This document shows positions 10,849-47,907 of a stretch of 64,000 nt of DNA, in pieces. Origin of the DNA: Dactylorhiza incarnata (taxonomy: Eukaryota > Streptophyta > Magnoliopsida > Asparagales > Orchidaceae); assembly GCA_033032865.1 (NCBI GenBank), contig JAWHQI010000040.1, forward strand, positions 5,811,001 through 5,875,000, given 5' to 3'. Numbering within the stretch: position 1 is the first letter of the stretch; each line of letters opens with the position of its first letter. A model generated the notes under the pieces. The model saw only the letters and a list, made by a program, of their open reading frames with translations, made no database searches and was not told where the DNA came from. Position numbers and translations under genes: made by a program.

Positions 10849-11413
10849 TTCATCTGAAGGTTAGGTCGTTGAGATGGGAGCTAGAAGGGCTCATCTCGTC
10901 GGCTAGGTTAATTGAAAAGTGTACTAAATTAATCATTATTTTGATATTTATAAGGGCTTGATTTAGGTTTAGATTGTCCCTAAGTATATAAGTTGATTAA
11001 CCTTAATTAATTTGATTGATTTTATATTGCTGAGTTGTCAATTTGGTCATCATTTAATTGAGGCAGACCGTCTCAGCGGAACCGCTGAGACAGAGGTGTT
11101 ATCCGCTGGGACACTGTATTGCCAACCGCTGAGATAGTTCTAGTTGTGTCAGCAGATTAGCTGAGATCTTCTGAGCTATCTCAGCGGTCAGCTGATACCT
11201 TCTCAGCTGTTTCAGCTGATTTCACAATCATTAATCCTAAACATGCTAAATTCAGATAACATTAAACTTTTAGGCATGTGTCAAGACCTGAACATGCTAC
11301 CAATTATTTAGATAGCTACTTTTCCTATCAAGGCTTGTTATACATGATTACATGCTATATTAAACCTAGGGAATGACATCATGAGCAAGGCATACAAATT
11401 AGCATAATAAGAT
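10849..11413 (-). promoter_or_regulatory. Spacer upstream of the D accessory ORF with LTR-type palindromes and a TATA box
   Basis: This noncoding spacer separates the RNase H stop (11414-11416) from the accessory ATG (10848). It contains a perfect palindrome with 10-bp arms GTCTCAGCGG / CCGCTGAGAC at 11070-11079 and 11082-11091, and further CTCAGCGG half-sites to about 11215. The same motif clusters in the D LTR (17820-17960) and the E LTR (2690-2850). A TATA-like CCTTATAAATATC lies at 10943-10956, about 95 bp before the ATG. I read it as a candidate internal promoter; that is inference. Confidence 0.55.
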
Positions 11414-12295
11414 CTATATTAAATTCAATATGCCAAGCTCAATTTTAAAAACATTAATCTTTGCCTCATCCAATGGCTTTGTAAAGATGTCAGCAACTTG
11501 TTTGTCAGTGGGGAAAAATTCAAGGCATACATCATTACATTCTGCATGCTCTCTAATAAAATGATATCTTATCTCTATATGCTTAGTCCTGCTATGTGAA
11601 ATAGGATTCTTAACTATAGAGATAGAACTGGATGAGTCACAATATAGGGGAGAATTACTTACCTTGAGGTTATAGTCCTCTAACTGATGTTATATCCAAA
11701 AAAGTTGTGCACAATGGCATCCTGCTGCTATGTATTCATATTTAGCTGTGGATATTGCCACATTGGTCTGCTTCTTGCTGCTCCATGATATCAGCCTTCT
11801 TCCTAGGAATTGTCAAGTTCCACTTGTGTTTTTCCTATCTTCTTTGCAACCTGCAAAGTCTGCATCTGAAAAGCCAATTAGTTCAAAATCATCTTTCTTA
11901 AGGTACCAAAGGCCAAGGTGTTGGATGTCCATAAGGCATCTCAAAATCCTCTTTGCAACTGAGTAATGTGGTTCCTTAGGGCATGCTTTGTACTTAGCAT
12001 AAACACATGTAGCATACATAATGTCTGATATACTGGCAGTTAGATGTAACAGGGACCTAATTATGCACCTGTACATGGATTCATCAAAGGGCTTACCCTT
12101 TTCATCCTTGTCTAGGGAAATGTTGGATCCCATGGGAGTTTTCATGGTGGAGGCTGATTCCATCCCAAACATTTTAATAAGCTCCCTAGTGTACTTGGTC
12201 TGAGAGATGAAAATTCCCTCATCAGGCTGTTTCACTAGGAGGCCTAAAAAGTACTTGAGCTCTCTCATACTGCTCATCTCAAACTCCCCCTTCAT
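11414..12295 (-). pseudogene. pol: RT C-terminal part and RNase H of element D
   Basis: This is the end of the Copia polyprotein. The RT thumb region (MSSMRELKYFLGLLV, QTKYTRELIKMFGM) leads into RNase H, which would remove RNA from RNA-DNA hybrids during reverse transcription. RNase H motifs seen: GFSDADFAGCKEDRKNTSGT (first catalytic Asp), then SWSSKKQTNVAISTAKYEYI with the usual acidic residue, then the conserved C-terminal block FTKPLDEAKINVFKIELG before a TAG at 11414-11416. The reading frame changes near 11813, so the domain is read in two frames. Confidence 0.9.
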
Positions 12296-12960
12296 AAGGT
12301 TGGCAAACCTTTTGCAAAGGTTGTCTTATGAAGACCCAAAGATTATGTCATCAAGATAAATTTGGACTAGAAGACACTTGCCCTTTGTTTCCCTAAGAAA
12401 TAATGTGCTATCTATCTTTCCCCTCAAGAACTTATTCTTGATGAGAAAGCTAGAAAGGTCTCATACCAAGCCCTAGGGGCTTGCTTTAGACCATATAGAG
12501 CTTTCTTAAGCAAATAAACATGAGAGGAGAGGGTAGGATGAAAAAAACCTGAGGGTTGCTCCACATATACCTCTTCCTTTATATTGCCATTCAGGAATGC
12601 TGATTTGACATTCATCTGGTACACTTTGAACCCTTTTTGGGCAGCAAAGGCTAGGAATAGCCTTATTGCTTCTAACCTTGCAACTGGTGTAAATGTTTGA
12701 TCAAAGTCATACCTTCTTCTTGCATGTACCCTTTAGCCACTAGTCTGGCTTTATTTTTGATGATGGTGCCATTCTCATCAAGCTTATTCTTGTAGATCCA
12801 TTTGGTGCCAATGATATTGTGTCCTTGAGGTTTTGACACCAATTTCCACACCTTGCACTTCTTGAACTGAAGCAGTTCTTCTTGCATTGCTTGAGTCCAA
12901 AAGGTGTCTTCATTTGCTTCTTCAAATTTCTTGGGCTCCATTTATGATAGAAAGCTCAAT
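12296..12960 (-). pseudogene. pol: Reverse transcriptase of element D, catalytic Asp lost
   Basis: This is the N-terminal and central part of a Copia RT. The opening MEPKKFEEANEDTFWTQAMQ, then IIGTKWIYKNKLDENG and ARLVAKGY, are family hallmarks (12672-12941). After a frameshift come [12 protein letters not shown] and [17 protein letters not shown] (12424-12624). In active copies the first of these reads [11 protein letters not shown] and the Asp is catalytic; here it is Asn, as from a G-to-A change. The second catalytic motif, YLDD, is intact near 12345-12356, followed by an in-frame stop. Two frameshifts and the missing Asp make this RT inactive. Confidence 0.9.
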
Positions 12961-14117
12961 AATAGGGCTTCATTGTGAGCCCTGCTTTTGGTAACCACTC
13001 CTTGGTTTACATCTCCAATTATTTGGTTTCTTGGATGATCCCTTAGGTGTCTATTTGCTGCAGGCAACCTGTCAGCTTTCTGCAACTCTTCTTTTTGAGC
13101 AGCATCATCTTCAACAGCTTGCTAATCTTCAACTTCAGGGATTGCTACCTCTGAATTTATCTTGCTTGTGCTGGGTATGTCTTGGAGAGACATATCTTGC
13201 ATTTTTTGTTCATTACCTGTCAAAACATTAGAGCTACACCCCTTATAGAGCAGGCTGGTCTCTTCAAAAACTATATGCATAGACTCGTCTACAAATGAGT
13301 TTTCTTGTTTAAATACTCTATAGGCTTTGTTATGTGAGCTATATCCAACAAGAACCCCTACAATGCAATTTTCAGCAAACTTAGTTAATTGAGATTTTCC
13401 ATTATTTAAAATGTAGCATTTGTAACCAAAGATTTTATAGTATCAAATAGTTGGTTGTTTGCCTTTGAGAATCTCATAGGGGGTTATTCCTAGGACCTTA
13501 TTGATATATGCTCTATTGAGAACATAGCATGCAGTATTGACTACGTCAGCCCAGAAATATTCTGGGAGTGAGGAGTCACTAAGCAGTGTTCTCCCAGCCT
13601 CTATCAAGGTCCTATTCCTCCTCTCAGCCACACCATTTTGCTGTGGAGTCCTTGTGGAGGAGAACTCTTGGGTGATACCAAATTCTTGACAAAACCTTGG
13701 CATTGCCCTAGATTGAAATTTTGTACCATGGTCAGTTCTAGTCTTAACCACAAAACATTGAAGTTCATTCTGGATTTCCTTAACATGGTTTATAAAGGCA
13801 TCTAAAGTATCAGATTTCTTCTTAAGGAAGAATACCCAAATATACTTTGAATGATCATCAACAATCACCAAGGTATACAACTTCCCACCTAGGCTCTAAA
13901 TTGGCAAAGGACCAAACAAGTCCATGTGCAATAGATAAAGACATCTTTCAGTGTCTTTGGAGCCAATGCTTTTAAAGGTGGCCCTTCTTTGTTTGCCCAT
14001 TTGACATGGATGACATGGACCACTTTTAACCCTTTTTAAATTTGGACTATTTCTAACTAAATTTTTAGAAAACAACCTATATATTGTCTTGTAGTTGATG
14101 TGAGCAAGTCTCTTGTG
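12961..14117 (-). pseudogene. pol: Integrase of element D (HHCC and DDE domains)
   Basis: Integrase inserts the cDNA into the genome. The N-terminal zinc-binding part reads HKRLAHIN then CHPCQMGKQ (about 13985-14117), giving H-x-H and C-x2-C ligands. The core has LLHMDLFGP (first Asp), VDDHSKYIW, RTDHGTKF (second Asp) and TPQQNGVAERRN (catalytic Glu), so the DDE triad is complete. Two in-frame stops are visible: a TGA just before HKRLAH, where this family has Trp, and one between DLFGPLPI and SLGGK near 13895. Past 13440 the frame runs through the linker to RT in the same frame as the protease. This is the best-preserved enzyme in the window. Confidence 0.9.
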
Positions 14118-14555
14118 TCATTGAACACAAAGAGACTCACTCTCATTGGCCACAAGAAAAACAGGAGAAGTAGAAGAATTGCATATAAAATCTAAGCAAT
14201 ACACATTCCCAATCCTAGTTCCTGAGAGAATGATCTCTAAGTCATGTGACTTTTTGATCAAGCACTTATCATTGTGGAATTCAATGACATATCCTAAGTC
14301 ACACAGTTGACTTATGCTTACAAGGTTGTGTTGCAACCCTTCAACATAAGCCACCTTTGTGATGGATACTATGCTATTTGAGATCATACCAGTATCTCTG
14401 GTGATGCCTTTTTCTGATCCACCAAAGATGACCTTAGGTCCAGTCTTCATAGCTTTGTATTCCTGTAGAAGACTTTTGGTCCCAGTGATGTGCCTTGAGC
14501 ACCCACTATCCAAGTTCCAAATTTGCCCAAGGCTGGTACTTGAACTATCCTGCAA
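14118..14555 (-). pseudogene. pol: Protease and Gag-pre-integrase region of element D
   Basis: Start of the pol part. WNLDSGCSRHITG carries the Asp-Ser-Gly active site of Copia proteases, which cleave the polyprotein. YVEGLQHNLVSISQLCDLGY, about 70 residues later, is the conserved block before integrase. The segment is open from 14555 to 14118 and in the same frame as the integrase. Upstream is the gag stop and a splice-acceptor-like TTCCTTCTTGCAG (see findings). Confidence 0.9.
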
Positions 14556-14564
14556 GAAGGAATT

Positions 14565-17076
14565 TAATTACCCTTAGGAGCCCAAGTAATTTTGGGTCCT
14601 AGGCTTTTGTTAGCATGGAAAGACTTCACACTTGCTGCAACCCCTACAGGAAAGCTCAACTTAGCACTTGGCACATTATGTTTGTGCCAACAATCTATGG
14701 CAAAGTGTCCCACCTTACCATATCAACAACACTCATGAATATTATATCTTCTCTTCTGAACCTTCTTTGAAGAATTAACATCAATATGCTTGGGTTCAGG
14801 AGGGAAGACAACATCATTCTTCTTAATCCTTTCAGCAATGATCTGGCTGAAGGTTAACCTGTGGTCAGTCTTAGCAGCCTTTATCTTAATGACATCAGCT
14901 TGCCTTGGCTTGGAAGCTAGGCAAGATTTTATGGCATCAGACATAGAGCTGTTAGGCCTATCAACAGGTTTGACAGCAGCCAAGAGCTTTGCTGGAATGG
15001 ATTTGGAGGAGCCACTTTCTTACTCTTGAATGATGGAGCTGAAGTACCAAAAACAAATGGTCTAGAATGGGCCATTTGTATTTCTTCATGGGGAGCCTTC
15101 ATAGCCCTCATCCCCATGCCCTTTCTTCTTCTATGGGAAGGAGTGCTTTCCTTCCTATAGGAACTTCCATTCTTCTAGTGACCATACATGTTGTCATGGT
15201 CATACCTGTTAGAGGGAAATAACACCTTTTGAAAGGTGGTTTGAGGCTTAGCCTTAGCCTTGCTCTTTTCTCCACTCCCTTCACCCACTTCCATTTTATT
15301 GAACCTTAGTCCTCTTCTATTGGTTTGAGAGGAGAAGGTGTCAATAATTGGAAGCACTGATTTGGGCTTGGAGAATTGAGCCACTAAATTCTTCTCTTTG
15401 AGAAGCTTCTCCTTAAGGTCCTTGATGACCTTGTTCATTTGGGAAATGGTGCTCAATTGGAAAATTGATATCCCCTTGAGTTAGCATATCTCTCTACTCA
15501 TCTGAGCCACCAGGGTAGGAGACTTAGTGCAATCTTGTTTAGCCAACTTAAGGGAAGCAATTTCTTGAGCTTGCCACTTGGCCAACTTCTTGCTCTTTTT
15601 CAGAGCATCTAACAAAGCATCATACTTGTCAATCAAATGATTGACAGCTACTCCAGATTCTGAATCATTTTCATCAATTGATGAGCATGCTTCAGATTCT
15701 GGCATTGACTCATACTCAGAAGAAGGGGGAAGAGTAGGTACCTTGTCAGGAATGTCCTGACTATCTTCATCAACATCTGTTATGGCCATTAAGCCATGAT
15801 GTTCTCTTGCATCTTCATCCTCCTCTATATCACTGTATGAATATGATAGAGGGGCCCTAATGCACACCTTTGCAGCAGGAAAGTCCTCATCTTCCTCAGT
15901 TGCAAACAACCTAATATAGGCTTCTTCTTCTTCATCTGAATCTGAGGATGATTACTCAGATTCACTCCAACTTTTGTCCTTCAAGGCTATGAAGGACTTT
16001 TCTCCCTTCCTTCCCTTCTGGTGATAGGATTTCTTATCACCCTTATCATTCCTCTTGACTGGACAGTCAGCAATGACATGTCCAAGCTTACTATAACAAT
16101 TATAAATCACAATAGATGAAACATGTTTAAAATGTTTAGAGTCATATCTATCTACCTTGGGGTGCTGCTTGTCTGATCTGTTGAGATCCTTCCTGAGATG
16201 TTAGGAGGAGGAAGGCTTGTTCTTCCACTGCTTCCTCCTCATTATCTTCTTTAAATGCCTTAAGAAGGCAGCAAACTCCTCATCAGAAGAGCTGCTGTCA
16301 GATGAGCTGGACTCAGAATTTTCTGAGCCAGCAACCTTCCTTGGAGATGTAGGCATCCTTTCCTTGCTCTTCTTGGATCTCTCAGCCTTGAGGTCCATAG
16401 TTCTTTCCCTTGCATGAGGCCTGGAGGATGTGTCCTCCTCCTTCCTAGCAGATAACTGCATCTCATAAGAGAGCATCTTTCCAAATAGAGTATGGGGAGG
16501 AGTCTCACCCAGCTTTGCCACCTCCCTGATGGCACAGATCTTGGTATCACAGTCTCTAGTTAGAGATCTTAAGAATTTTTCATTCAGCTCATAATAAGTG
16601 AAGGTCCTTTCATAGGTCCTCAACTCATTCACTATCCTGAAGAATCTTTCATAGCAATTAGCTATGCATTTCAGGCTTTGCTGCATGAAAGCTTCATATT
16701 CCTGATTGAGGATGGATTTCCTATCATCCCTCACCTCCTCAGTCCCTTCCATGTACACTACCAATGTATCCCACATGTCCTTGGAAGTCTCACAGTGTAC
16801 CATGCTCTGGAATGTTGAATCATCAATATCATTGACTATAATGTTTTGAGCTCTTTTGTCCATTGTTGCCAATGCAATCTCATCCCTTATCTTTTCAGTG
16901 TATGACTTACCTACCTGCCTAGTAGGATCAATAGTGGAGGGCTTTGTGATGAGAAAGGGGACCTCCTGGACAGTGATAAAGTTCCTAGGGTCTGAGGCCA
17001 CTATGAAAAGCCTAAACCTTTGCTTCCAAATGTCAAAGGTTTCCTTTTTGCATATAGGAAGATGTATAGACCTCAT
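14565..17076 (-). pseudogene. gag: gag of element D, both zinc knuckles damaged
   Basis: The capsid part is open from 17076 (MRSIHLPICKKETFDIWKQR) to 16201, with DMWDTLVVYMEG and YERFFRIVNELRTYER. The upstream ATG that E uses is ATT here, so 17076 is the first available start. Next come serine-rich acidic tracts (15481-15909), a coiled-coil-like stretch (15175-15456) and a basic tail ending APKG near 14565. The first knuckle (near 16082-16123) keeps GH and ADC, but its first two Cys codons are now TAT, as from G-to-A changes. The second knuckle (near 14689-14740) keeps KVGHFAIDC but has a stop within its Cys pair. Further stops lie near 16201, 15950 and 15480. Confidence 0.85.
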
Positions 17077-17166
17077 CTCCTTCTGAACTCCATTGGTAGC
17101 AATTGGATTCAGATCTTACTATACCTATGTGGGACCTGGTCAGACTGTTAAGTCCTTTTTGACCAA

Positions 17167-17184: not shown

Positions 17185-18137
17185 TGATAGTTTATATGTA
17201 TGTAGTCAAATTCACCTAGAGGGGGGGATAGGTCTCTTTGAATTTTACTTAATTATTTTTGCTAGGAAACAAAATAACAAGCACACATAGAAAACACACA
17301 AGTGTTTATAGTGGTTCCCCAAGACAGTGTGTCTATGGGTAGTCCACTTTCCCTCTACACCTTTCTAACAGTGTGTTAGACAAAGCCAGCTCCTCCAATC
17401 TCATCTCATAGAGCTTACAACTTAGATCCCTCAGGATCTCTCAGGCTTTCTCCAAGCCCTACATCAGGCCAACAAGCCCTACCACTCAGAGTGCTCCCAC
17501 TCCTACATCTCAGAGATCTCCTTGACCTCCTACCTCAGGCCTATCAAGAGGCCCTATTTCTCAGTTAATATTCCCCACTGCTCAAGCTCAACAGCCTTTC
17601 AAACCACAGGCTAAACAGCCCTACTGCTCAGGTTAAAAAACCCTACAATCTCAGGCACAACGCCCTACAAGCTCAGAACAATACAGTTCCTATAGTGAAT
17701 AAATGTTAATTATACAACATTTTACAACATTGGAATGATGTCTTCTATTGTTCCTGCACAGCTGGTGCTTCTTTGAAACTTGGCTGAATGTAAACTTCAT
17801 TCCTAGCTTCTTTTTTATCCTTCTCAGCGGTTTAGTTGCCTTGGTCTCAGCGGATCCGCTGAAACAGATAGTCTTCTCAGCGGTTTTTATCTATCTGCAG
17901 CTCAGCTGAGGCAGATCACTTCTCAGCGGCTCTTGGCCTCGTCTCAGCGATTCCGTTAGATAGTGACTCCTTCTCAGCGATTTTGACAGCAATCCTCTGA
18001 ACTGATTCCAATGTTTGGAATATCTTAACCCTGCACATTCCTGATGCAAAGTAGGGTTTATCAAATACAATATGTACTTAGTATTGTGAGTGATGCCTCT
18101 TCAAATCAAGGGAACATTAAGGGCAATATTCCCAACA
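17185..18137 (-). repeat. 5' LTR of element D (953 bp)
   Basis: In plus orientation it starts TGATAGTTTATATG and ends CAATATTCCCAACA. The ends and many internal blocks match the E LTR. It carries the CTCAGCGG cluster at 17820-17960, with an imperfect palindrome (arms 17844-17853 and 17856-17865). The next five bases (ATTTG, 18138-18142) should recur at the far end of D, outside the window. The near-direct repeats of CCCTAC...CTCAGG at 17450-17670 also occur in E. Confidence 0.85.
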
Positions 18138-20059: not shown

Positions 20060-21647
20060 TGTTGGGAACAGTGCCTTGCAATGTTCCTGATTTGAATAAG
20101 TGCTCTGCTCAATGATAAATGCAAGTTGTATTTGACATACCATCTAGTTCATGCTTGCAGGAATCGACAAAATGTCATGTACTTTAGTTATTCTACTAAG
20201 TACTATATCGTCGAGAAGAACAGGCAACATCGTCGACAAAGCGTACTTGTCATCGTAATGACTGGTAGATCAGCAGCCGCTGAGAATGTCGATCGTCGAA
20301 CTCTGAGACGTGGTGAGATCGTCGAACAAAGAATGGCGATCGTCGAACGAAGGATGGCAAGTTCGTCGATCACAGAATGTTGTTCGTCGAACACAGAGAA
20401 GACACAGGACATCGTCGTGTGGAACTCATGTCATCGAGAGAACAATATGATTACGATGACATGATGCAAGAAGGAAGCTCAGCACGACACTGTCAGAGAA
20501 AGAAGATCGTCGTATATACAGAATCGCCAGGATATCTTGTATCGTCAGGATACCTCCATCAGTGGCAGAAGGAAGATCGCGACGACAAAGACAGAGACAT
20601 CTTGTCGTCGTAATGATGCAAATATCTTCAAGACAGAATTCAAATCTTACGGACCCGTGTCAGCATTTAATGCCGCCGCCTGATTGTCCAATCAGCACGT
20701 GCTCGAATAAGATGGGCATCTGACAGAAAAGGACATTGCCTATGACAATTGTGCGATTCCAAGGTCCTATAAAAAGGAACGATGGGTGCCCTAGGAACAC
20801 TCTCGAACATCAGAGCAAGGAAGTATCCCGCCGCTACTCTTGAACAATATATTCTGCGGAGAAGAAGAAGGACAAGTTGAGAGCAAGCATCAAGTGCTCT
20901 CAAAAAGAATCAGTCATCATCATCGACTGAAAAGTAGCCGATCAACACCAGGCAAATGAAGTGAAGGCTGAAGAAAGATCCAGTGCTAAATCTCCAAATC
21001 AAGAAGCATCTTCTTCAACCTAAAGAAGCCGATCTCCATCAGGCTAAGTAGCCAATCACCATCCGACAGAAGAAGCAGTTTTACTTACTGTAATCTCTTG
21101 TAAGGCCTGGGGGCCAAACCGTCTAGCTTGAGGGCTGGAGAGCTGTGAGGCTTGAGGGCCAGGGCAGTGGACTTGCGGGTCCGACACCGTCTAGCTTGAG
21201 GGCTGGAGAGCTGTGAGGCTTGAGGGCCAGGGCAGTGCACTTGTGGGTGCATTTGTCGAGCTTGAGGGCTCAGGGGCAGTAGGGGCTTGCGAGCCTAGGC
21301 TGTAGGCATAGGACTTACGGGTCTGTGTTGTGTAGGGCTTGCGGGCCTGAGTGTCGAGCTTGCGGGCTCGGGGGCAGTAGGGGCTTGCGGGCCTAGGCTG
21401 TTGGGCTTGCGGGTCCGTGGTGTAAGGCTTGAGGGCCTGGAGTTTTTGGCGGCATTTGCCGAGCCTAGCACACTACTGGGTAGGAGCAGAGGGATAGAGG
21501 ACTACTCAAGACACCCGGTTTTGAGGAACCTCTATAGATCATTGTGTGCTTTTTGTGTTTTGCTCTTTATTTCATAAAGCTAAGCTATTAACCAGAAACG
21601 AAGAAAATCCTAAGGGGGATAAAATAAACGGAAAATCCTATTCACCC
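20060..21647 (+). repeat. 5' LTR of element A, first part
   Basis: About 1.59 kb up to the insertion point of C; the last 50 bp of the LTR are at 27125-27174. A CCAAT box (20688-20692) and a TATA box (CTATAAAAAGG, about 20766-20776) mark the promoter. CGTCGA-type motifs (ATCGTCGAC, GATCGTCGAACG, TTCGTCGATC) cluster at 20205-20600. Downstream of the TATA box, 21090-21460 is a run of GGCTTG(A/C)GGGCC-like direct repeats of roughly 20-40 bp. The matching 3' LTR is at 39320-40947. Confidence 0.9.
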
Positions 21648-22860
21648 TGATGTAGGGGTACCATGACGACGTGTACGTTACTCTAACGGAATGACATTCA
21701 TCACATAAATTAAAATAACATGGGAGGGCTCCGAACAAAAGCGAACGAAAAGGGGTCGGTTGGCTCTCCAAATCCGATAGATAAAAATATGCGGGACTCG
21801 ATACAATGTCCTTAGGACCTACCTCTCCAACAAGCACACAACTCACCGTAAGCCGGACTCGATACAACATCCTTAAGACCTACCACTCCAACAAGCACAC
21901 AACTCACCGCACCTACAGAAGCATCTATTCCATCAATCGATTCATTTCAAAATGCAGCGGCAATATTTCAGAGCGGTGATGAACATTCAAGCGGTGATAA
22001 AACTTTTGTTGAGATTAATTCCCTTGTTAGCACAAATTGTGCCAATCTTGGAGAGCAAGTCAAGGCAAGGCCGAGTTTTGCTCCCGCAATGGATCTGCCC
22101 AATCCGGATCATAAGCGATTCAATAACAACGAATCGAAATCAGAAGTTGCAAGCGATGCGTTTTAAAATCGCGGAAAAGACGGTTCGCATAAGCCTCCAC
22201 AAATCTCACAGAAAGAAATCACAAAATGAGAAGGGATTACCCAACCAAGAAGATGAACACACACAAGATAATGTGGGAGATTCACTCTCTCCACGGATCC
22301 ACCGGCGTCACACCGAATGGGGTTGCAACCTTCTTCCTTGGAGTCGCACCGAAGGAAGCCACACCGGAGTCGCACCGAAGCGGATGGAGGAAGCGGTCTT
22401 GGAGTCACACCAAGGGAGGGGCGGCTAGGAGGAGGCTCCAAGCATGGCCGAAATTCTCAAGGGAGAAATTAGGGTTTGTAATCTTCAATAATTTATTCCC
22501 TCTCATCAAGGCCTCCTTAAATAGGAGTTACAACAAAATCTTAACCATCCAAGATGGAGATGTAATCTCATCCATCCATATGGTTAAATACACACCAAAA
22601 TAATAAAAGAGTTCAAATTTAAAATTACAACCAACTAATGAATATAAAACTATCATCAAGCATGAAATAATTTTATATTCATTAATATAAAATAAAAGTG
22701 CATAAATAAACTATAAATTTTCACGGCAGTTTTGGCACGCCGCGGGCGGAGATTGTAACGCGGACTTCCTTCAGCATCATAATGGCACCTCAGATTTTTG
22801 TGTCGCGGCGCCTCGGCAACCGGGTCATCATCCAGGAGTGTCGGAGGGGCCGCGCCATCA
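21648..22860 (-). repeat. 3' LTR of element C
   Basis: In plus orientation it starts TGATGTAGGGGTACC and ends CGCGCCATCA. The minus-strand polypurine tract GAGTGGGGGAGGAT lies directly outside it at 22861-22874. A TATA-like CTATTTAAGGAG (minus) is at about 22510-22522. The end of the chromodomain ORF reads into this LTR. Confidence 0.9.
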
Positions 22861-23504
22861 ATCCTCCCCCACTCAAAATCACGTATGTCCGATGCGTGGT
22901 CCGGGAGATAGCGGCGGAGAAGCTCGGCGTCCAAACGTTGAAGCTCTGTCGCGTGTACCCAAGAGTCGTCTGAGGGAGGGAGGTCACGCCAATCGATGAG
23001 GAAGCGATAGGTAGCACCATCAGGATTAGCAAGTGGCTCAACAGCAAGAATCACATCTGGAGTGAGCAACGTCTTGGGGAACCTGGGAAACACGTCAGCA
23101 GTAGGAATAAAAGAAGACAACGTACCATCTGATGTTATTCCTACGGGGACCGAAGGAGAGAGATCATCCGAACTACCACTCCCCAACCGTTTAGAATTTT
23201 TAGTGGAGGGAGAAGACGACAAAGAGTCCAACTCATGCGGAGGCGAAACAAACGGCGTCAAGTCCGAAACATTAAAAATAGGGGATATACCCTAATCAGC
23301 CGGCAAATCTAACACGAAAGCGTTGTCACCTAGCTTCTTTATAATCCGAAAAGGGTCGGCACGCTTTGGTGCTAACTTTTTAACGGTGCCAGTTGGCATT
23401 CGTTCGGGAACTAACCGTACTAAAACCAGATCGCCGACTTTAAAGTGTGACACCCTCCTATGTAAACTAGCGTGCGTTCGATAAAACTCGTATTGATCGG
23501 CCAA
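22656..23504 (-). pseudogene. pol: Integrase C-terminal region and chromodomain of element C
   Basis: One frame from 23504 to 22656 with a single in-frame stop at 23292-23294. The first part has KVGDLVLVRLVPERMPTG and DPFRIIKKLGDNAFVLDLP, the GPY/F-type C-terminal module of Gypsy integrase. After the stop, NVSDLTPFVSPPHELD continues the frame. About residues 67-119 of the second part (from 23261) form a chromodomain: VILAVEP, YRFLIDWRDLPPSDDSWVHA, DAELLRRYL. In chromoviruses this domain guides integration to chosen chromatin. Its aromatic cage is only partly recognisable. The last 68 or so residues are encoded inside the 3' LTR. Confidence 0.85.
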
Positions 23505-23573
23505 GGTAGCTCGTATACATGCATGTAAGTCATGAATATGTTGGGCGAAGTATTGTGCGAAATGACTTGTCTT

Positions 23574-23927
23574 TTACGTTGGGGGCAACGGAACCAAGTC
23601 AAGAGGCACATGGGCCTTGTACCCGTGAACAATCTCGTTCGGAACACCCACTAATGCATTATAAAATTTTAAATCCAAGTTCATCGTAGGATGGGTAGTC
23701 GCACGAACTATAGCAGCGGGGTCTTTGGGAGATAAGAATGTTAAAAAGTTCATAACTTCGTTCTCAACACTAGATTCAAAAATGCTAGCACTCCCAAAGG
23801 GAGTGGTATCGGGGGCACGAAGCCTAGGACGATCCCAAAATTTATGGTCAACTAGCATAGGAAGGACAACCCAACGAAACCACTCATCTCGTCCCGCGGT
23901 GGTAATGGATTCCATACCATACTTCAA
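23574..23927 (-). pseudogene. Integrase-proximal linker of element C
   Basis: An open stretch of about 118 codons ending FYNALVGVPNEIVHGYKAHVPLDLVPLPP and then a stop. The last 30 residues fit the distal part of Gypsy integrase (the target sequence, then VHG.KP..PLDL.P). The earlier part (WVVLPMLVDHKFWDRPRL) is not recognised. It overlaps the end of the 23884-25080 ORF in another frame; a run of nine G at about 23943 lies at the switch. Confidence 0.6.
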
Positions 23928-25080: not shown

Positions 25081-25896
25081 AGTTATAATGTTTCCAATTT
25101 TCAGGCCAACCTAACGTGGTCGAATCAAAAAATTTTATGTTTTAAAGTTGTTGGAATAAGAGCAGGAAGCTACAGAAAAACTTTCAGATTTATTTGACAA
25201 GTTTTAAAATTCCAAGACTTTTACTAAATGCAGACCAATCCGAAAATTTCAGGAATTTGAATTTTGAATTTCAAAAATTTGAATTTTGAATTTGAATTTT
25301 GAATTTCAAAAAATTGAATTTTGAATTTGAATTTTGAATTCCAAAATTTCGAATTTTTAATTTGAATTGTTTTTGGAAAGTAATCGTGCTTAAGATTAAT
25401 AAAGATTTGGTTGTTTTGGAAAGGATTCGTGCAAGATAAATTAAGATTTGATTGTTTTGGAAAGTAATCGTGCAAGATTAATTATAGGTCGGCGTCCTAT
25501 GGTAAGAAATAAATTAGGATGATATCAATTAAGATTATTTTTATTTTTATTTTATTTTGCTGGAAAATAACAGATTTAGGACGCTAAACGCAGATCAGAA
25601 CTTCTAAACATGCTAAAATTTTACGAAAGATAATTTTATTCTCGCTTAAAAACTAAGGTAAGTAAAATATGTTTTTTGATTTTCTTGTAGAAAATAATAA
25701 GTAGAATATCCGGAAAATTTGTTTTTTGAATTTCGCAAAAAAATGAGAATTTTAGACCGCTATTCGCAGACCGACGAAATTTTATTTTTAATTTTGAATG
25801 CCAAATCGTGTGACGATTGTGAGTGACGGCGTTCTACGACAACCTAAGGATTGCGTCAATTTAGAAATTGACACGAACCTAGCTCTGATACCAAAT
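25081..25896 (-). other. 5' leader and primer-binding site of element C, with an AT-rich repeat
   Basis: The primer-binding site TGGTATCAGAGCTAGG (minus) is at 25878-25893, three bases from the LTR. The leader has no coding domain. At 25250-25365 is a simple array of GAATTTTGAATTTCAAAA-like units. A GGAAAGTAATCGTGC block recurs at 25374, 25418 and 25458. Confidence 0.75.
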
Positions 25897-35472: not shown

Positions 35473-35917
35473 TCTTAAAACCCAGTCCTAGGCTAACTTA
35501 GAAATATTTAGGATTAGGAAGAGATAAGAAGAAATAAACACCTAGAACTTTTAAAAGTCGCGTCGACTTCCAATCGACGCACCGTCGATGACTCAGGTCA
35601 ATAAGTACAATCGACGCATGCGTCGACTACTTTCGACGCATACGTCGATAAGAAACCCTTGCATCCCAGAACAGACTAAATTGACCCTCACGTCGAATTC
35701 AACTCGACGTAATGTCGACTTCATAAAAACGAGCAGCAAGACCAAATTATTTTCGATCACATCCACTGAAGTGAATAAGCCTCGAATTGAGTCATGTTTC
35801 GACGCTTCACCTGACTTAAAAAGACTCTTCAGTTAGAAACCTTCACAACCTCTGCATCTTTCATCCTTCTTGCTCCTCAGTCCAGCCGCCTCTTCCTCTC
35901 TCCTTCACTAACCTAAA
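35473..35917 (+). promoter_or_regulatory. Spacer upstream of the B accessory ORF with LTR palindromes
   Basis: Between the gag stop and the accessory ATG (35918) lie GCGTCGA-N7-TCGACGC at 35560-35580, a TCGACGCATGCGTCGA palindrome at 35611-35626 and more GTCGA sites to about 35805. The same motif and spacing occur in the B LTR. CATAAAAA (about 35724) is a weak TATA candidate. This replaces the pol region found here in D. Promoter activity is inference. Confidence 0.55.
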
Positions 35918-37749
35918 ATGGCTCCCAAGACCAACTCAGGCTTCGACATTGACCTGGAATCCTTCCAAGCCACCGCCGACAACTTTAAGAGCATAATTGC
36001 TCTGTTCTCTGAAGCTGGTCTGGATAAGCTCATTTCAACAAGATACAAGCTCCTGGAGACAGAACTAACAGAGCTCATAGCTCATGTTCAGATAACTGAA
36101 CAAGGAGAAATTTCAGGCACAATCCATGAGACACCTGTATCAATATCTGCAGAACACATAAGGACCACCTTTGATCTTCCATCAGGTATATTCTAATATC
36201 ATCTTGGTTTAAATGAAATAAGGAAAGAAAATGAGCTTCTAAAAAGAATGACTAAACATGTCTTAATTATTCCCCAATTAGGTGATGAATCCATTGAACT
36301 CACACCTGATGAAATCAAGCATTTACTCACCACCATGAATTTCTCAAAAGATAGGCCAATCCATCTGAAAAAGATAGACTTTTCTGATGAATACAGATTG
36401 CTGGCAGATATAGTAGGGAAAGTTCTACTATGCAAAATCTCTGCACATATGCAGTACCCAAACACCAACTGAACATCATGAGGGTCCTTGTGCTGAAGAA
36501 GAAAGTAGACTGGGCCACATGGCTACTCAAGACAATAGGCTCTAGATATTCTCACAAAGAGAATGCCTACATGAGGATTATGAGTCAAGTACTCTTCCAC
36601 TCCTTCCCTGACCTCTGTAGGTCAAAAGGAATTCCTATCCCTCCTGGAAAGAGGATGTCCATTGCCCTCTTCTCCAAATGGACCAGGCAAATCCCCAAGC
36701 CTGGCTCCATTCCTGAAAGGACTCCCACTCCTCCTAACTCTCCTGCTCACCCTTCTCCTCCTCCTTCTCCTCAAAGAGACAATTCTTCTCTACCACCATC
36801 ATCCACTCAAATAGCCTCTACCACCCTCACAACTCCTACTTTACCTTCTTCTTCTCAAACACCTGCTCAGACAGCAGTTTCTCCTTCTCTTCCTCCTCCT
36901 ATTTTCCCATCTTCTCTATCTCCATTATCACCCATACCTCATGTATTACCTCACTTCTCTCCTCCTCTATCACCTCTTCCTCCACCATCACCTCCAAACC
37001 TTTCACACCATGAATCATCTGCATCCACTGAGGCTCTCATCACTCAGTGCATCAAATCAGCAGCTGAAAAATTCCAAATGATGCTGGATGAGCACTGCTC
37101 CCAGATTCATTCCTCCATCCTACACATGCACACCCAAATAGATGTGGTCAGTGCCTCTGTGCAAAGTCTGAAGAACTCTCTCTCTTCCTCAAGAGTTATC
37201 AAGTCTTTCTTAACCTCCTTGGCCAAGAAGGTCAAGAAGGGGGAGAAGCTAGATGAAGAGCAGCCCTCCAATCTTAAATCTCCCTCACACAAATCCCCTC
37301 CTTCTTCAAAATCTGACAGTCTTGCACTGCTCAAGACAATTGGAAATGAGAAAATACATGAGCTACATATTGAAGAACAAACAATAGTGGTACTCAATAT
37401 AGCAAGAGAAGCAGCAAATCAAGTGGTACTATTACAAGGGGAGGCAAGCAGGGCAGAAAATGAAGCTGAAAAGGAAGATGTGGCAGATGGTGGGAAAGAC
37501 AAAGAAACTGAAACTCAGGGGGAGCTGGATACTGCTATGAATGAAGCTGAAAATGAAAAAGGACAGCCAGATGCTGTGTTGGCTGAAGCTGAAGCTCAGG
37601 TGGAGCCAAATGCTGTTTTAACTAATGCTGAAATAGAAACAGAAGGCTCTGAAGTTCCATTCCAGGGGGTACAATCTGCTACTGAGAAAGAGCAACCCAC
37701 TAAAGTATTCAAAAGAAAAAGAAAGACTCATCCTACCCCTCCTGAATAA
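35918..37749 (+). pseudogene. Accessory ORF of element B (MAPK-start protein), one stop and one frameshift
   Basis: ATG at 35918 (MAPKTNSGFDIDLESF). An in-frame TAA at 36194-36196 follows SAEHIRTTFDLPSGIF; the same frame continues to YRLLADIVGKVLLCK, the block shared with A and D. A shift near 36440-36470 leads to the 36430-37749 frame: LNIMRVLVLKKKVDWATW (aligned with the MARVILKKKTSWAEV block of D), MRIMSQVLFHSFPDLCRSKGI, a proline/serine-rich region (36700-37010), a coiled-coil-like stretch (SAAEKFQMMLDEHCSQIHSS; VVSASVQSLKNSL), acidic repeats and a basic tail FKRKRKTHPTPPE. Apart from two lesions it is well preserved. No signal peptide or membrane segment is evident. Function unknown. Confidence 0.8.
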
Positions 37750-37948
37750 TGATTGAAAATAATGTTGATATACTCTACCTTATAGTTGAATACTAAACAT
37801 GAAGTCTGCTTATATAATTCTGGGAAGTGTGTTTATATGATCTCTCTTTCTAATTTCTCTTCTGATTGTTTGACATATTTCTGTTCTATATAATTGCCTT
37901 GCTAGTAAAATTTCCCTCTAAATAGGGTTAAGACAAATAGGGGGAGAT

Positions 37949-39251
37949 TGTTGGGGAAATGATTTCTCTTAACCCCTAGAAATAAGTTGAATATGAATTA
38001 TAAGAGAGAAAAACAAGGTTAAGTAAATATGCGTCGAATATTATTCGACGCGACGTCGAAATGTAGTCAACGTTCCCTTCAGATTAAGTCGAAGTAACTT
38101 TAGGAAGATTTCGACGTATGTGTTGTCGACGCTACTCTGATTTCTAGTCGATGCATCTAATGTAGTCGACGCACCTTCCTTATTCTCCTCTCGACGTCCA
38201 GCCAGGATGAATTCGACGCTTACGTCGAATGATAATCGACGCACGTCGATTTATGTGACAGATTTAAATATGCGCCAGATCTCTTTCCTTCTTTCAGTAG
38301 ATCTGATTTGTATGGAATAAATGTCAATATTTTATAGCCGTTCTGAATCATTCTTTCCTTATATCTGATTCTTGGCTAATTTGATTAAACTTATTTGGAC
38401 ATTATTTGAAATCAGAATTGGTTCTTTCCTTCTACAGAAATAAATATTATGGAAACATTTTCATCTTTCTATTTCTCTGACTGCTAATTGATTATCCTCC
38501 TATAGTATTATTTTGAATTAATAGAGCTATAAATAAAGAGGAGGTCGGCAGAAAAAGGTGTTGAGGATCCACCACATACATTTGAAATAGAGGAAAAGCT
38601 CCCAAGAGAAAAGAGAGAAATTGAGAAATAGCTCTGCAGCAATTTTCAAGTACTTCTTCTTCTGCTTCTGAAGTCACTCTGCTGCAAATTCTGATAGCTC
38701 TCACAAAGAGAGAAAGGCTACAAATCTTCTTCTCTTTATAGAAGAAAGATTTAATTCACTTCTTGTGCTTCCAATCTTCTTGCTAGGAAGAAGATTCTTT
38801 CTTGTTTCTATTCATTTCTTCTTCTTCTTCATTCTTTCTTACTTAAACATTGTAAAAGAGTTTTTATAATCTCTCTCCAAAAAATTCAGTGTACTGGTTC
38901 TAAGAGTCTCTTTGTCAAAAGACTCAGTTGGTTCTAAGAGTCTCCTTGTCAAAAGACTCAGGGTGGTTCTAAGAGTCTCCTTATCAAAAGACTCAGTGCA
39001 AGATAGTGAATTCCTACCAAGGGGGTAGAAGAGTGGACTACCCAAAGTTTGGGGAACCACTATATTTTCTTGTGTTATGCTGTGATTTCTTTACTTGCTT
39101 TTATTCTCTTTATTTGTTTAATTCTTGTTGGTGTGTGGGAAGCTCTAATCTCTGATCATACACATATATATATTAACTTTGCACAAAATATTTTTTAAAT
39201 CTCTATTCACCCCCTCTAGAGAATTCTAGTGAGGTTAATTGTGCACTTTCA
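37949..39251 (+). repeat. 3' LTR of element B (1,303 bp)
   Basis: Same ends as the 5' LTR. It lacks one CACATTAGTCGACG-type segment of the motif cluster and has a shorter C tract. TATA box at 38529; palindrome GCGTCGA-N7-TCGACGC at 38031-38051. Polypurine tract just upstream at about 37936-37948. Confidence 0.92.
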
Positions 39252-39319: not shown

Positions 39320-40947
39320 TGTTGGGAACAGTGCCCTGCAATGTTCCTGATTTGAAGAAGTCCTCTGCTCAATGATAAATGCAAGTTGTTTTTGACATAC
39401 CATCTAGTTCATGCTTGCAGGAATCGACAAAATGTCATGTACTTTAGTTATTCTACTAAGTACTAAATCGTCGAGAAGAACAAGCAACATCGTCGACAAA
39501 GCGTACTTGTCATCGTAATGACTGGAAGAGCAGCAGCCGCTGAGAATGCGGATCGTCGATCGCTGAGACGTGGAGAGATCGTCGAACGAAGAATGGCGAT
39601 CGTCGAACGAAGGATGGCAAGTTCATCGATCACAGAATGCTGTTCGTCGAACACAGAGAAGACACAGGACATCGTCGTGTGGAACTCATGTCGTCGAGAG
39701 AACAATATGATTACGACGACATGATGCAAGAAGGAAGCTCAGCACGACACTGTCAGAGAAAGAAGATCGTCGTATATACAGAATCGCCAGGATATCTTGT
39801 ATCGTCAGGATACCTCCATCAGTGGCAGAAGGAAGATCGCGACGACAAAGACAGAGACAGTTTGTCGTCGTAATGATGCAAATATCTTCAAGACAGAATT
39901 CAAATCTTACAAACCCGTGTCAGCATTTAATGCCGCCACCTGATTGTCCAATCAGCGCGTGCTCCAATGAGATGGGCATCTGACAGAAAAGGACATTGCA
40001 TATGATCGTTGTGTGATTCCAAGGTCCTATAAAAAGGAACGATGGGTGCCCTAGGAACACTCTCGAACAACAGAGCAAGGAAGTATCCCGCCGCTACCCT
40101 TGAACATAATATTCTGTGGAGAACAAGAAGGACAAGTAGAGAGCAAGCATCAAGTGCTCTCAAAGAGAATCAGTCATCACCATCGACTGAAAAGTAGCCG
40201 ATCAACACCAGGCAAATGAAGTGAAGGCTGAAGAAAGATCCAGTTCTAAATCTCCAAATCAAGAAGCATCTTCTTCAACCTAAAAAAGCCGATCTCCATC
40301 AGGCTAAGTAGCCAATCACTATCCAGCAGAAGAAGTAGTTTTACTTACTGTAATCTCTTGTAAGGCCTGCGGGCCAAACCGTCTAGCTTGAGGGCTGGAG
40401 AGCTGTGAGGCTTGAGGGCCAGGGCAGTGGACTTGCAGGTCCGACACCGTCTAGCTAGAGGGCTGGAGAGCTGTGAGGCTTGAGGGCCAGGGCAGTGCAC
40501 TTGCGGGTGTGATTTGTCGAGCTTGAGGGCTCGAGGGCAGTAGGGGCTTGCGGGCCTAGGCTGTAGGCACAGGACTTGCGGGTCTGTGTTGTGTAGGGCT
40601 TGCGGGCCTGAGTGTCGAGCTTGCGGGCTTGGGGGCAGTAGGGGCTTGCGGGCCTAGGCTGTTGGGCTTGCGGGTCCGTGGTGTAAGGCTTGAGGGCCTG
40701 GAGTTTTTGGCGGCGTTTACCGAGCCTAGCACACTGCTGGGTAGGCGCAGAGGGAGAGAGGACTACTCAATACACCCGGTCTTGAGGAACCTATATAGAT
40801 CATTGTGTGCTTTCTGTGTTTTGCTCTTTATTTCATAAAGCTATTAACCAGAAACGAAGAAAATCCTAAGGGGGATAATATAAACGGAAAATCCCATTCA
40901 CCCCCCCCCCCCTCTAGGTGATAAAGTAGACACCCCCATAAACAACA
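39320..40947 (+). repeat. 3' LTR of element A (1,628 bp)
   Basis: Complete counterpart of 20060-21647 plus 27125-27174. A handful of differences per few hundred bases are visible. CGTCGA cluster at 39465-39720, TATA box near 40028, GGCTTG(A/C)GGGCC repeats at 40355-40700. It ends AACAACA and is followed by the target duplication GGAAA (40948-40952). Confidence 0.92.
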
Positions 40948-44479: not shown

Positions 44480-46029
44480 TGATGAGTCCTGATTATATAC
44501 ACCTTCATGGACTCATCCGGGCCATTATTTAGTCAATATCACGCACTTTAGCCTTATTATAGTTTATAATTGATAACCCATGCTAGGTGCACATTTTGGC
44601 CCACTTTGGTGTGTTTTCGTGTTTATTTCCTTTCATAGTACTCATATGTTGTTAAGTGCCACTTTCGGTGGCTAGATCTGTGTTTGTGCTGGAATAGGAG
44701 GCGTGCAAGTGTTTCCGGTGCAATTCTGCACAGGAACACTGCGCACGATCACTTGTTCTAGTGCGCACGACCACTGGTCGTGCGCCACTGATCGTGCGCA
44801 CTTAGCCCCTTTTTACGAGTTCTGTCTGGTGCAGTGCGCACGCCCATCAACTCCAGTGCGCACGACCACCGGTCGTGCGCCACTGTCCGTGCGCACTTAA
44901 TAGTAATTTTATGAGTTCTGTCTCACCTATTGCGCACGACCACCGACGCTAGTGCGCACGACCAATGGTCGTGCGCCACTGGTCGTGCGAACATTTTATT
45001 TTATGATTTCATCTCGTGCAGGTTCTGTCCAGGCAGTGCGCACGATCGCAGGATTCCAGTGCGCACGACCACTGGTCGTGCGCCAATGATCGTGCGCAGT
45101 GTTTAATCCAGCGCCTATTTATTGACCTGTTCGTGAATTAGGTCGGGATCACGCAACTCTGCTCCGTTCAGTCCGCCGTTTTCGCCGTTTTCAGGGGATT
45201 TTCACCCCCTAGGCCTCCTCCATCATCCAAAGGCTTAAAGGAAGGGTTCCTACACTCACTTTGACCGCTAAGGAAGAGGTTCTCCGCAATAGACGTGGCC
45301 GGATTGTAAATCGCTGGAGAAGACGGGTCCATTGGGAGGTGTGACAGCCCTCTTCTACCCCGGACGCAGTTGGGACCGAGCTAGGACGCGGATTGACAAC
45401 CCGGTGCTTCCTACCGTAAATCTACAACGAGACTCCAGATTCGGTCGTATCTCTTGCCTTTTTCCTCTATTTTTGTGGTTATGTGTGATGTATTCTCTTT
45501 ATCTTGATGATGAACACTATGAATCATGCCTAGTGTTGCTTATTTCATGTTTATGAAATTATTTTGTTCATTTGTGTCATTGAGGTGCGCTTTATTTCAT
45601 TTTCCATCCCACCGCCACGATCGGTGCCACACTAGCAATTGCTAGTGGCGTGCTTGACGAAGAGGTGCTCGCGACCCTCACTCCGCTTGCCTTCTCGTCC
45701 ATCCGCTCTTTCGACGCAGCGCGCTCAAGGCCTGCCTAGTCTCCATCTCACCAAGCGAAGCATTGCATAGCAGCACTGCATAGGAGTAGTGGTAATATTT
45801 ATTTTAAGTATTCACAAACCCCCAAAGCCCTTTCATTCGCATTCCGCCTTTCGCAGGACTTCAATCTCAAGTCTTTCCTCGATAATAAACTCCACCTTAC
45901 TGTGTTCCTTGAGAGATTCGATACTCGGGGATTACTCCTCGTTTTATATTACTTGAACGATCGGTACACTGCCGTTTCGTGCCGCAGTCGAGCTACCGCC
46001 TATAGCGGTGTGTGAGATTTGCGCCATCA
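44480..46029 (+). repeat. 5' LTR of element F
   Basis: TGATGAGTCCTG...TTTGCGCCATCA. At 44738-45100 four near-perfect palindromes with 11-bp arms (GCGCACGACCA and TGGTCGTGCGC, one base apart) recur about every 100 bp, the first at 44763-44785. TATA-like CCTATTTATTG is at about 45114. ORFs at 44703-44900 and 45332-45556 lie in the LTR, recur in the 3' copy and are not genes. Confidence 0.95.
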
Positions 46030-46256
46030 AGTTTTTGGCGCCGTTGCCGGGGAACACAGTCGTGTGAGTTTTCTGGAGAGGGAGAATCTGAGAGAAAAGC
46101 CCTTCCTTTTGTAAATTGCATTTTCTTTTCTTTTTATTTCTGTTCTTTTTAGTCCATTTTCTTGTTTTATAGTAGGTTGCTTTAGTAAAATTTTGTTAGG
46201 TATAGTATTTCGCACAATAGTGTTCTTAGTTTTGAGAATCGTTTTATCTTCGCACT

Positions 46257-47453
46257 ATGTGGGCACATTTCAATTTCCGTTGCCGTTGGTGTGGAGCTAC
46301 CTCCCACTCTAGTGATGAATGCCCTACGGAGAATAGTAGGCATAATTCTTCTCGCCCAGCATATGGAGCACCGACTTCGTCTGGTACCTCTTATGGTGCG
46401 CGTAAGTCTTATGGCTACTCTGCTGAGCCTTTACCGTCGTACTTCTTTTCGGCTCCAGCCCCCGCTGTGCCAAAGAAGCCCGCTAGGCAGTGCCAGTTTT
46501 GTCGGAGCACAGATCATGCCCTGAAGGATTGTGCTGCTTTTCGTCGCCAATTGGATGAGGATGACGAGCCGGATATCCGGATCGTCCCAACTCCTAACTC
46601 TTGCGGCACACCTTCAACATCCGGTTTTGTGTCTTTGCCACCTTCACATCTTGAAGGGTATGGCGTTGACACAGTCACCAGATGTGTGGCTGATTTGGGC
46701 ACCGACATTGCTGAATCTATTCTCCCAGTGCATCCACCACTTCTTGTGGAACCGATTCTTCCCGCTGTTGTGCATACTACGCTCGTCTCCGACGACATTG
46801 TCGATGAGGTGTCACAAGAGGAGGCGGTTGATCTTAGTGTTGTGCCTATTCCTATGGAGGAGGACAACCTTCTAGGTGAAGAGGAGTTTTCCTCAACACC
46901 GGTGGAGGAAGTCCAAATCCTAAGCCTGGCCACCGTTGATCCCACCGACTCTTGTAGCATTGATGACAATGCTAACATTATTTTACTTCCCCAACTTGAT
47001 GGGAGTGAGACCGGGACCACTCCCCCGATTGATGTTTATTTATGTCCTTCGTCTTCTTTAGTTCTTGATCCCCCTTCTTCATTCGAGCCTGTGCAGGTTG
47101 AGTCCGTACAGGTGCCCCAGGAGGACTTGGAGCTTTGTGCTCAAGTTAATGATGAGTGTATCCTTTCATGTGAGGAGGTTGATCCTTCCTCCATAGAGGA
47201 AGCCTCACTCATTGCCTTCTCCTCCTGCGGACCTGCTGTGGACGATACCTTGCTGTGCAAGGATAGTTTTGGTGAGATGAGTGAGGACCAGGCCTCCTCC
47301 TCTTCTTACTTTCTTTTCCCTCTACTTGTGTTTAGCAGGTATTATTATTTAGGTAGAGGGGTGACTGTTCTGTCTCCGTATCGGTACCCGCTACCGATGC
47401 GCATACTAGAACAGTTACCTGTGCACTTTTCTTTCCATAAACCCATTAGCTAG
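46257..47453 (+). CDS. gag: Zinc-knuckle ORF of element F (Gag remnant)
   Basis: An intact 398-codon ORF 200 bp after the primer-binding site. Two CCHC knuckles lie near the start: CRWCGATSHSSDEC (residues about 9-22) and CQFCRSTDHALKDC (about 79-92). Between them is an S/G/Y-rich linker (TSSGTSYGARKSYGY). The rest is acidic and rich in Pro, Val and Ser (for example EEDNLLGEEEFSSTPVEEVQ), unlike a protease. A capsid domain does not precede the knuckles, so this is the C-terminal nucleocapsid part of Gag used as the whole protein. It could bind element RNA and join particles formed by another element; that is inference. Confidence 0.8.
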   Translation: MWAHFNFRCRWCGATSHSSDECPTENSRHNSSRPAYGAPTSSGTSYGARKSYGYSAEPLPSYFFSAPAPAVPKKPARQCQFCRSTDHALKDCAAFRRQLDEDDEPDIRIVPTPNSCGTPSTSGFVSLPPSHLEGYGVDTVTRCVADLGTDIAESILPVHPPLLVEPILPAVVHTTLVSDDIVDEVSQEEAVDLSVVPIPMEEDNLLGEEEFSSTPVEEVQILSLATVDPTDSCSIDDNANIILLPQLDGSETGTTPPIDVYLCPSSSLVLDPPSSFEPVQVESVQVPQEDLELCAQVNDECILSCEEVDPSSIEEASLIAFSSCGPAVDDTLLCKDSFGEMSEDQASSSSYFLFPLLVFSRYYYLGRGVTVLSPYRYPLPMRILEQLPVHFSFHKPIS

Positions 47454-47907
47454 AACTTTTATATATTCGAATAAGTCGTGCTGGGATGACATTAACCCCA
47501 GTAGTTATCCTTATTTTTCCTGAAACTTTATTTTGTTTGATTTAGTTGAGTTTTTGTTAAGGCTATGAAAGTCTCGCTGCGTGTGCTGACTCTTGTTTGT
47601 GCGTAAACTGCATGGTGATTGGCGTTTTCACTGAAAATTTTGGCCGCTGAAAAAATTCCTATTGCGCACGATCACTGGTCGTGCGCACTACTTATCGCGC
47701 ACGATCACTGGTCGTGCGATCGGCCCAGATTTTTTTTTAAAAAACCCGTCCGCCCGAGCCTTTCACGCACGACCTAGGGTTCTTCTTCGCGATCGCCCGT
47801 GCGCCGTTCTTCCCCTTCGCCGCCGATCGTGCGCCTCCTTCCCTTCCTTCCGGTGAGTCCATTTCCTTCCTCTTCCTTTCTTTGCTCTCCTTTGCCCGCC
47901 TTCCGCC
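47454..47907 (+). promoter_or_regulatory. Spacer upstream of the F accessory ORF with LTR palindromes
   Basis: Two palindromes of the LTR type: arms GCGCACGATCA / TGGTCGTGCGC at 47664-47674 and 47676-47686, and a second at 47697-47719 with one arm-end mismatch. More GTGCG / CGCAC half-sites follow to 47835. The accessory ATG is at 47908, about 190 bp from the second palindrome. An A/T run (47731-47745) is the only TATA-like stretch. Confidence 0.55.

Follow-up and report, generated by a model that had tools for sequence, protein, structure and literature searches.

In Sireviruses, palindromic motifs were reported to occupy both the long terminal repeat (LTR) and the region upstream of ENV in 9 of 9 ENV-bearing elements and in 0 of 4 motif-carrying elements that lack ENV, with further copies where ENV begins in two elements and with CpG islands at the motif clusters, and an internal promoter was suggested, as given in the accessible text of Bousios 2010 (PMC2829016). 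The accessible parts of two further papers describe a promoter for the ENV open reading frame (ORF) of Athila6A in Arabidopsis (PMC4977677) and a promoter belonging to Grande gene23 itself (PMC7264820), and that of a third (PMC12844716) cites VANC and asks whether the extra ORFs of LTR elements shape their methylation. We analyzed a 64,000-nucleotide stretch of Dactylorhiza incarnata DNA (contig JAWHQI010000040.1, positions 5,811,001 to 5,875,000 of the forward strand; hereafter the window), which lies in a 3.27-Gb genome and contains nested LTR elements. Four of these are considered here: A, B, and D, which are Sirevirus-like, and F, which has an Athila/Tat-type primer site. A first-pass annotation had claimed that each of the four repeats its own LTR motif just upstream of an accessory ORF, and all eight coordinates that it quoted do carry the quoted motifs; the D motif is present at both of its sites, the LTR copy having one mismatch in the right arm (CCGCTGAAAC), and so is the F motif, the spacer copy having one mismatch in the left arm (GCGCACGATCA). 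The annotation had also taken the internal copy to be undescribed, which is wrong for the Sirevirus-like elements A, B, and D, since the accessible text of PMC2829016 already reports it.

LTR motifs recur upstream of the accessory ORFs

So that motifs were not selected visually, they were defined by rule: within the upstream half of each LTR, the top-ranking 8-mer was identified and then counted elsewhere with one mismatch allowed, and significance was taken from 5,000 dinucleotide shuffles. In its own spacer, the region before the accessory ORF, this word has 4 matches in A, 7 in B, 6 in D, and 6 in F (p = 0.0006, 0.0002, 0.0002, and 0.0002, respectively), a density above that of shuffled sequence in all four window elements, as the first-pass annotation would have it, and the shuffles exclude chance as the source of the spacer motifs. 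The remaining internal regions have 0 to 3 matches, except for seven in B behind gag. The motifs form clusters rather than lone palindromes. On the plus strand, B has a U3 cluster of GCGTCGA at 31814-32046 and a spacer cluster at 35560-35805, and F has a U3 cluster of GCGCACGACC at 44741-45097 and a spacer cluster at 47664-47834; on the minus strand, D has an LTR cluster of CCGCTGAG at 17823-17980 and a spacer cluster at 11072-11209. In A (plus strand), the U3 cluster of TCGTCGA lies at about 20208-20390, and the four spacer matches amount to two sites, each counted at two overlapping offsets, that correspond to two direct, nonpalindromic copies of TCGTCGAAATGA at 29165-29197.

The upstream-half rule was adopted after a cruder discovery run on whole LTRs, in which the top words for D and F passed and those for A (an R/U5 repeat) and B (a C run) were absent from their own spacers. 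When 450-bp windows outside an element's own LTRs were ranked, the spacer came out on top for F and D, the B spacer was tied with the array behind B's gag, and the A spacer ranked under B's clusters and under an unattributed cluster near 62151. The A word also matches B's clusters because the two motifs share the core CGTCGA. The unattributed cluster (62151-62520) consists of A-motif-like direct repeats of TTCGTCGAACG with 39 CpGs in 370 bp and belongs to no assigned element. Element C, to which no accessory ORF is assigned, served as a control; the top words from its LTR score lower (z = 6.1 and 3.8), yet they have 6 and 5 matches when counted over the whole of its 3.0-kb internal region.

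Similarity between LTR and spacer extends somewhat beyond the motifs in F (47658-47719 against 44926-44990, 76% identity), in B (35499-35588 against 31760-31842, 67%, about 60 bp of the alignment preceding the motif), and in D (11070-11212 against 17844-17983, 62%). These extra-motif alignments are short and weak and the similarity lies mostly within the motif clusters, so that the copying of a whole LTR fragment into the spacer was rejected as an explanation.

Copies elsewhere in the genome

As the first-pass annotation had expected of family members genome-wide, a spacer cluster is present in 29 of 30 D-type loci, 9 of 10 B-type loci, and all 30 near-identical copies of F that were cut out. 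For D, a search with the accessory piece scored 105 of 36618 candidates and yielded 117 matches, and the 30 best-scoring loci, D itself included, were cut out. The 29 positive loci have 5 to 8 matches in the 600 bp upstream of the ORF, and one locus, L035, has none; over all 30 loci, motif density is 10.3/kb upstream compared to 0.74/kb in the 2.4 kb past the start. A TATAWAW match lies 80 to 130 bp upstream of the ATG in 25 of the 29 aligned loci (L035 left out), mostly at 103 to 104 bp, giving the order motif cluster, TATA, ORF. In the window copy, TATAAATA stands at 10945-10952 (minus strand), about 104 bp upstream of the accessory ATG at 10848, and the A spacer has the same word at 29336-29343 (plus strand), 129 bp upstream of the ATG at 29465. 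Mean column conservation is 0.926 in the D cluster and 0.862 in the remaining spacer (p = 6e-11; with a gap-rich block removed, p = 1.6e-8), and the best-conserved 138-bp block of the aligned stretch begins 13 bp upstream of the motif cluster, a near coincidence. Among three D relatives whose downstream DNA was tried, two have a D-like 3' LTR with 8 and 7 matches near the LTR start, and one has other DNA. Comparing the D LTR with a related LTR near 2.5-3 kb gave identity in 55 of 66 motif columns; the other columns of the cluster agreed in 85 of 121 cases (p = 0.054 relative to the motif columns) and those beyond the cluster in 226 of 324 (p = 0.025).

The B search scored 96 places of 83061 candidates, from which ten loci were picked by hand going down the ranking. 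Nine have the array behind gag together with 12 to 17 motif matches upstream of the ORF; locus L082 has different DNA upstream. All ten have 9 to 13 matches in the LTRs. The array itself (34968-35198, plus strand) is made of seven 33-bp units, each carrying the motif palindrome intact or in degenerate form. In the window copy it sits in an open frame that continues the frame of gag past a stop codon, and it is presumably gag coding sequence. In a column test on nine loci plus the window copy, half-site columns outside CpG were less variable than other columns both in the array (p = 0.007) and in the spacer cluster (p = 0.006), the half-sites having been set by majority letters, which somewhat favors this result. 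CpG positions in these copies do decay; of 585, 50 have been lost, and in 40 of these cases the change is to TG or CA.

For F, the 99 top-scoring places among 3884 candidates were evaluated; the accessory ORF is free of stops in all 99, and all are 99-100% identical. Thirty copies were cut out, of which 29 have six motif matches in the spacer and one has five. Eight copies picked by spacer DNA, the window copy included, carry 12 synonymous and 7 nonsynonymous variants, and thirty copies picked by protein score, a biased set, carry 25 and 6. Apparently the family expanded not long ago and retained its accessory ORF.

That the motifs are specific to families, another first-pass claim, is supported for D and F, where cross-matches are small; the words of A and B cross-match through their common core. 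The D word has 185 matches in the 30 D-type spacers of 600 bp and 62 in the 30 F spacers, about two per spacer; the F spacer of the window has two. As controls, the A, F, and B words were run on the 750-bp upstream stretches of the 30 D-type loci and matched 1, 3, and 15 times, respectively; in the ten B-type upstream stretches the D word had 0 matches and the F word 9, and in the LTRs of those loci the D word had 3 and the F word 0.

CpG content

In B, 78 of 87 counted CpGs fall in its three motif clusters, which make up 751 of the 6041 bp counted; gag has 2 CpGs compared to 61 expected, and the accessory region has 3 compared to 87. In D, there are 18 CpGs in the 558 bp of LTR cluster and spacer and 9 in 8528 bp elsewhere; gag and pol (11416-17115, minus strand, 5.7 kb) have 2 where about 232 are expected. 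Retention is less strict in A, whose sequence is less depleted (7/77 in gag, 24/100 in the accessory region, observed/expected 0.5 in the rest of the LTR), and F is little depleted (0.67-1.05 outside its clusters). Because the B LTRs differ by about 3%, the loss in B is mostly older than this insertion. The pattern would fit long methylation of the lineage, with the clusters either kept by selection or spared. CpG kept in clusters and lost elsewhere, as in B and D, offers a simple sequence marker for regulatory blocks of this kind.

Accessory genes and element structure

The A accessory ORF (29465-30929, plus strand) has broken frames (29465-29893, 29800-30006, and 30024-30929) and a weak N-terminal match to Transposase_32. 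The B accessory region (35918-37749, plus strand) has a MAPK start at 35918 and a main open frame at 36391-37749; an intron-like GT...AG stretch of about 95 bp (36186-36280) separates two open pieces of this gene. On the minus strand, the D accessory region (8576-10848) has a MAPK start at 10848 and open frames at 10690-9503 and 9037-8576. The F accessory ORF (47908-49176, plus strand) encodes 422 amino acids and matches ATHILA ORF-1 (PF03078) weakly, at 18.3 bits, below the cut-off of 20.2; a link between Transposase_32 and ATHILA ORF-1 is made in the accessible text of PMC11728184. The accessory protein of A is homologous to that of D (57% identity over 68 residues), although the two elements carry different motifs, and the B protein is related to that of D (33% over 82 residues). 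BLASTP of an A accessory piece against F was not significant, and the B N-terminal piece did not match A. No homologues of the F and D accessory proteins were found in the protein database, no PDB match by sequence was found for that of F, and neither F accessory nor B gag matched viral contigs. In nine accessory pieces, searched up to E = 10, neither DUF1985 nor any other DNA-binding domain was found, although the filters of HMMER remove most matches weaker than about E = 0.1. An AlphaFold model of the F accessory protein alone reached a predicted local distance difference test (pLDDT) score of 37.6 and was unusable.

Element A encloses C (21648-27135) and B. Its 5' LTR (20060-21647, plus strand) is interrupted by C, and its 3' LTR (39320-40903) extends slightly further. 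B has LTRs at 31732-33055 and 37949-39251 and a 5-bp duplication, CTATT. Element D is on the minus strand; its LTR starts at 18137, with the other end taken as about 17260, and is the single D LTR in the window, where no 3' LTR of D was found. F has LTRs at 44480-46029 and 51071-52620 that are 100% identical, and its 5-bp duplication ACCAC was found twice. The pol of D is copia-type, with the domain order Pol_BBD, rve, RVT_2 (integrase before reverse transcriptase), and the Ty1/copia gag family PF14223 scores 91.6 bits in B, 62.4 in D, and 21.4 in A, the last below the cut-off of 27. Gag-like and accessory ORFs are present in the internal regions of A (27169-31524), B (33056-37947), and F (46030-51070), and scanning ORFs from each of the three (two in F) revealed no pol domain; A, B, and F are apparently nonautonomous elements that retained the accessory gene.

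The Sirevirus polypurine tract (PPT) AGGGGGAG lies about 10 bp upstream of the 3' LTR in A (39310) and B (37939), with extra copies of GGGGGAG at 29065 and 30389 in A, at 37239 and 37518 in B, and at 9468, 9357, 9330, and 8807 (minus strand) in D; the D relative L034 carries AGGGGGAGATTGTTGGG. The Sirevirus primer binding site (PBS) TATCAGAGC is exact at 27180 for A and has no exact copy for B or D. In F, the PBS at 46036 is TGGCGCCGTTGCC, an Athila/Tat-type primer site that we take to be a mark of that lineage. The putative placement of F in Ty3/gypsy (Athila/Tat) is based on this primer site and on the subthreshold ATHILA match. Rfam and tRNA scans of the whole window found nothing, and an array of related repeats at 53863-54340 is minisatellite-like.

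Discussion

The layout of motifs in the spacer is real and conserved in the families sampled, and in Sireviruses it is already known. Palindromes in maize Sirevirus LTRs were reportedly also the subject of a 2016 study. In our reading, to which we assign a probability of roughly 0.7, the accessory ORF is preceded by an internal promoter that uses the LTR's own factor. Each element would have two promoters on one motif, the U3 of the LTR for genomic RNA and a second just upstream of the accessory ORF, and the motif-binding factor would turn on both together; with one factor switching both, the accessory gene would get its own transcript far downstream of the LTR. For D-type elements, a second promoter most simply accounts for the order cluster, TATA, ORF together with the cluster in the LTR. 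The first-pass proposal of an internal, LTR-like promoter is supported by this D-type layout, by the conservation of the cluster, and by two papers (PMC2829016 for Sireviruses and PMC4977677 for Athila6A); the start site in the spacer is putative.

Several points weigh against the promoter reading. The transcription start, the binding factor, and the co-regulation are all inferred. Within the D cluster, motif columns are no more conserved than their neighbors (p = 0.76), and locus counts do not equal independent events, because the copies are related by descent and those of D and F were taken from the top of the scoring. The case for A stands on two sites only. No TATA match was found 60 to 200 bp upstream of the ATG in the B or F spacers, and the TATAAATA matches of A and D are, taken singly, not rare, occurring in 2% and 7% of shuffles. 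In A, CpG decay after insertion affected 11 of 48 CpGs in the LTR cluster and 11 of 35 others in the LTR (p = 0.45), which indicates no sparing.

Who would bind the motif is a separate matter. LTR promoters of plant elements use host factors, and it seems to us an even call whether host transcription factors alone bind here, leaving the accessory protein an unrelated role as an envelope-like protein, a gag-related protein, or a silencing suppressor. Such motifs were matched mainly to stress-factor sites in the accessible text of Bousios 2010 (PMC2829016), which speaks for host factors; however, the small D/F cross-match shows motifs differing between families within one host, so that a single host factor for all is less expected. 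A refinement of the promoter reading, already raised in the first-pass annotation, names the factor instead: the accessory protein, like VANC, would bind its own family's motif in LTR and spacer, strip silencing marks, and feed back on itself, with the motif diverging in step with the region of the protein that touches DNA. We hold this to be doubtful. It draws on clusters that lie in noncoding DNA and are CpG-rich within CpG-poor elements, on motifs that are distinct in D and F and partly so in A and B, on the accessory region being kept in A (broken), B, and F without pol in the scanned ORFs, and on VANC targets being, in the accessible accounts, likewise clustered short motifs in noncoding regions. 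The different motifs beside homologous A and D genes would be expected if binding protein and site diverge together, and equally expected if sites drift with different host factors. The lack of DUF1985 or another DNA-binding domain in the nine pieces, the low pLDDT of the F model, and the unprotected cluster CpGs of the A LTR pair count against this refinement. In its most general form, which we consider unlikely, accessory genes of both Ty1/copia and Ty3/gypsy elements would encode DNA-binding activators or antisilencing proteins for their own family's motif, a retrotransposon counterpart of VANC in which motif and protein diverge together; pol-less elements would then keep the gene because pol can be obtained from other families and the protein must fit its own motif.

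Rather than protein sites, the palindromes might be hairpins formed by RNA or by single-stranded DNA, acting in packaging, in reverse transcription, or through small RNAs. Folding as single-stranded DNA gives z-scores of -4.6 for F, -6.7 for B, -6.3 for D, and -3.9 for the B array behind gag, values that add little because any palindrome folds, and the direct copies of A barely beat shuffles (z = -1.2, with 25 of 200 shuffles as good); we therefore regard hairpins as quite improbable. The idea that a piece of LTR was copied once into the spacer and has merely persisted agrees with those alignments that run past the motifs, but the similarity is mostly inside the clusters, the D cluster is the better-conserved part of its spacer, and CpGs persist in the B and D clusters and scarcely elsewhere, which makes a neutral leftover very improbable. 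Should a single motif drive the two promoters, as in the promoter reading, the env-like gene of plant retrotransposons, a subject of long debate, would become testable, the motif pointing to both the start site and the binder.

Compared with known systems, the Sirevirus-like elements resemble those with RM boxes in the accessible text of PMC2829016, which are element-specific palindromes in the upstream half of the LTR and before the ENV-like gene, with CpG islands. Palindromes in U3 and upstream of the accessory ORF are found in B and D; the copies of A are direct. A CGG-CCG core is given there for 12 of 13 RM-box motifs and is present in D (CAGCGG/CCGCTG), but it is absent from the motifs of A (TCGTCGA) and B (GCGTCGA), as it also is from Tnd-1. 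An array behind gag, a TATA spacing in the spacer, and gypsy-type elements are not among the RM-box features of that text; the observations added here for Sirevirus-like elements are the B array behind gag, the near-absence of CpG outside the B and D clusters (less strict in A), the D-type TATA spacing, and the near match between the D-type cluster and the best-conserved block of the spacer. Grande gene23 and the Retand ORFs likewise are extra genes between pol and the 3' LTR, according to the accessible parts of PMC7264820 and PMC11963269, but they are antisense, whereas the accessory ORFs here are sense. VANC and the VANDAL elements, as described in the accessible parts of PMC5735166 and PMC10398659, share with the present case family-specific, clustered, noncoding motifs in an element with an extra gene; VANDALs, however, are DNA transposons whose VANC contains DUF1985 and has been shown to bind, whereas DUF1985 was undetected in our elements. 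Closest to F is Athila6A, with an internal promoter for a 3' accessory ORF in the lineage to which the F primer site points; the accessible text of PMC4977677 does not mention a shared LTR motif, and in F, unlike Athila6A, no pol was found. Our searches of an open-access library turned up no published gypsy element whose LTR motifs recur ahead of an accessory ORF. What is new, then, is the same layout in F, with its Athila/Tat-type primer site and no pol found, apparently a second and distantly related group, which suggests that two superfamilies acquired or retained this arrangement.

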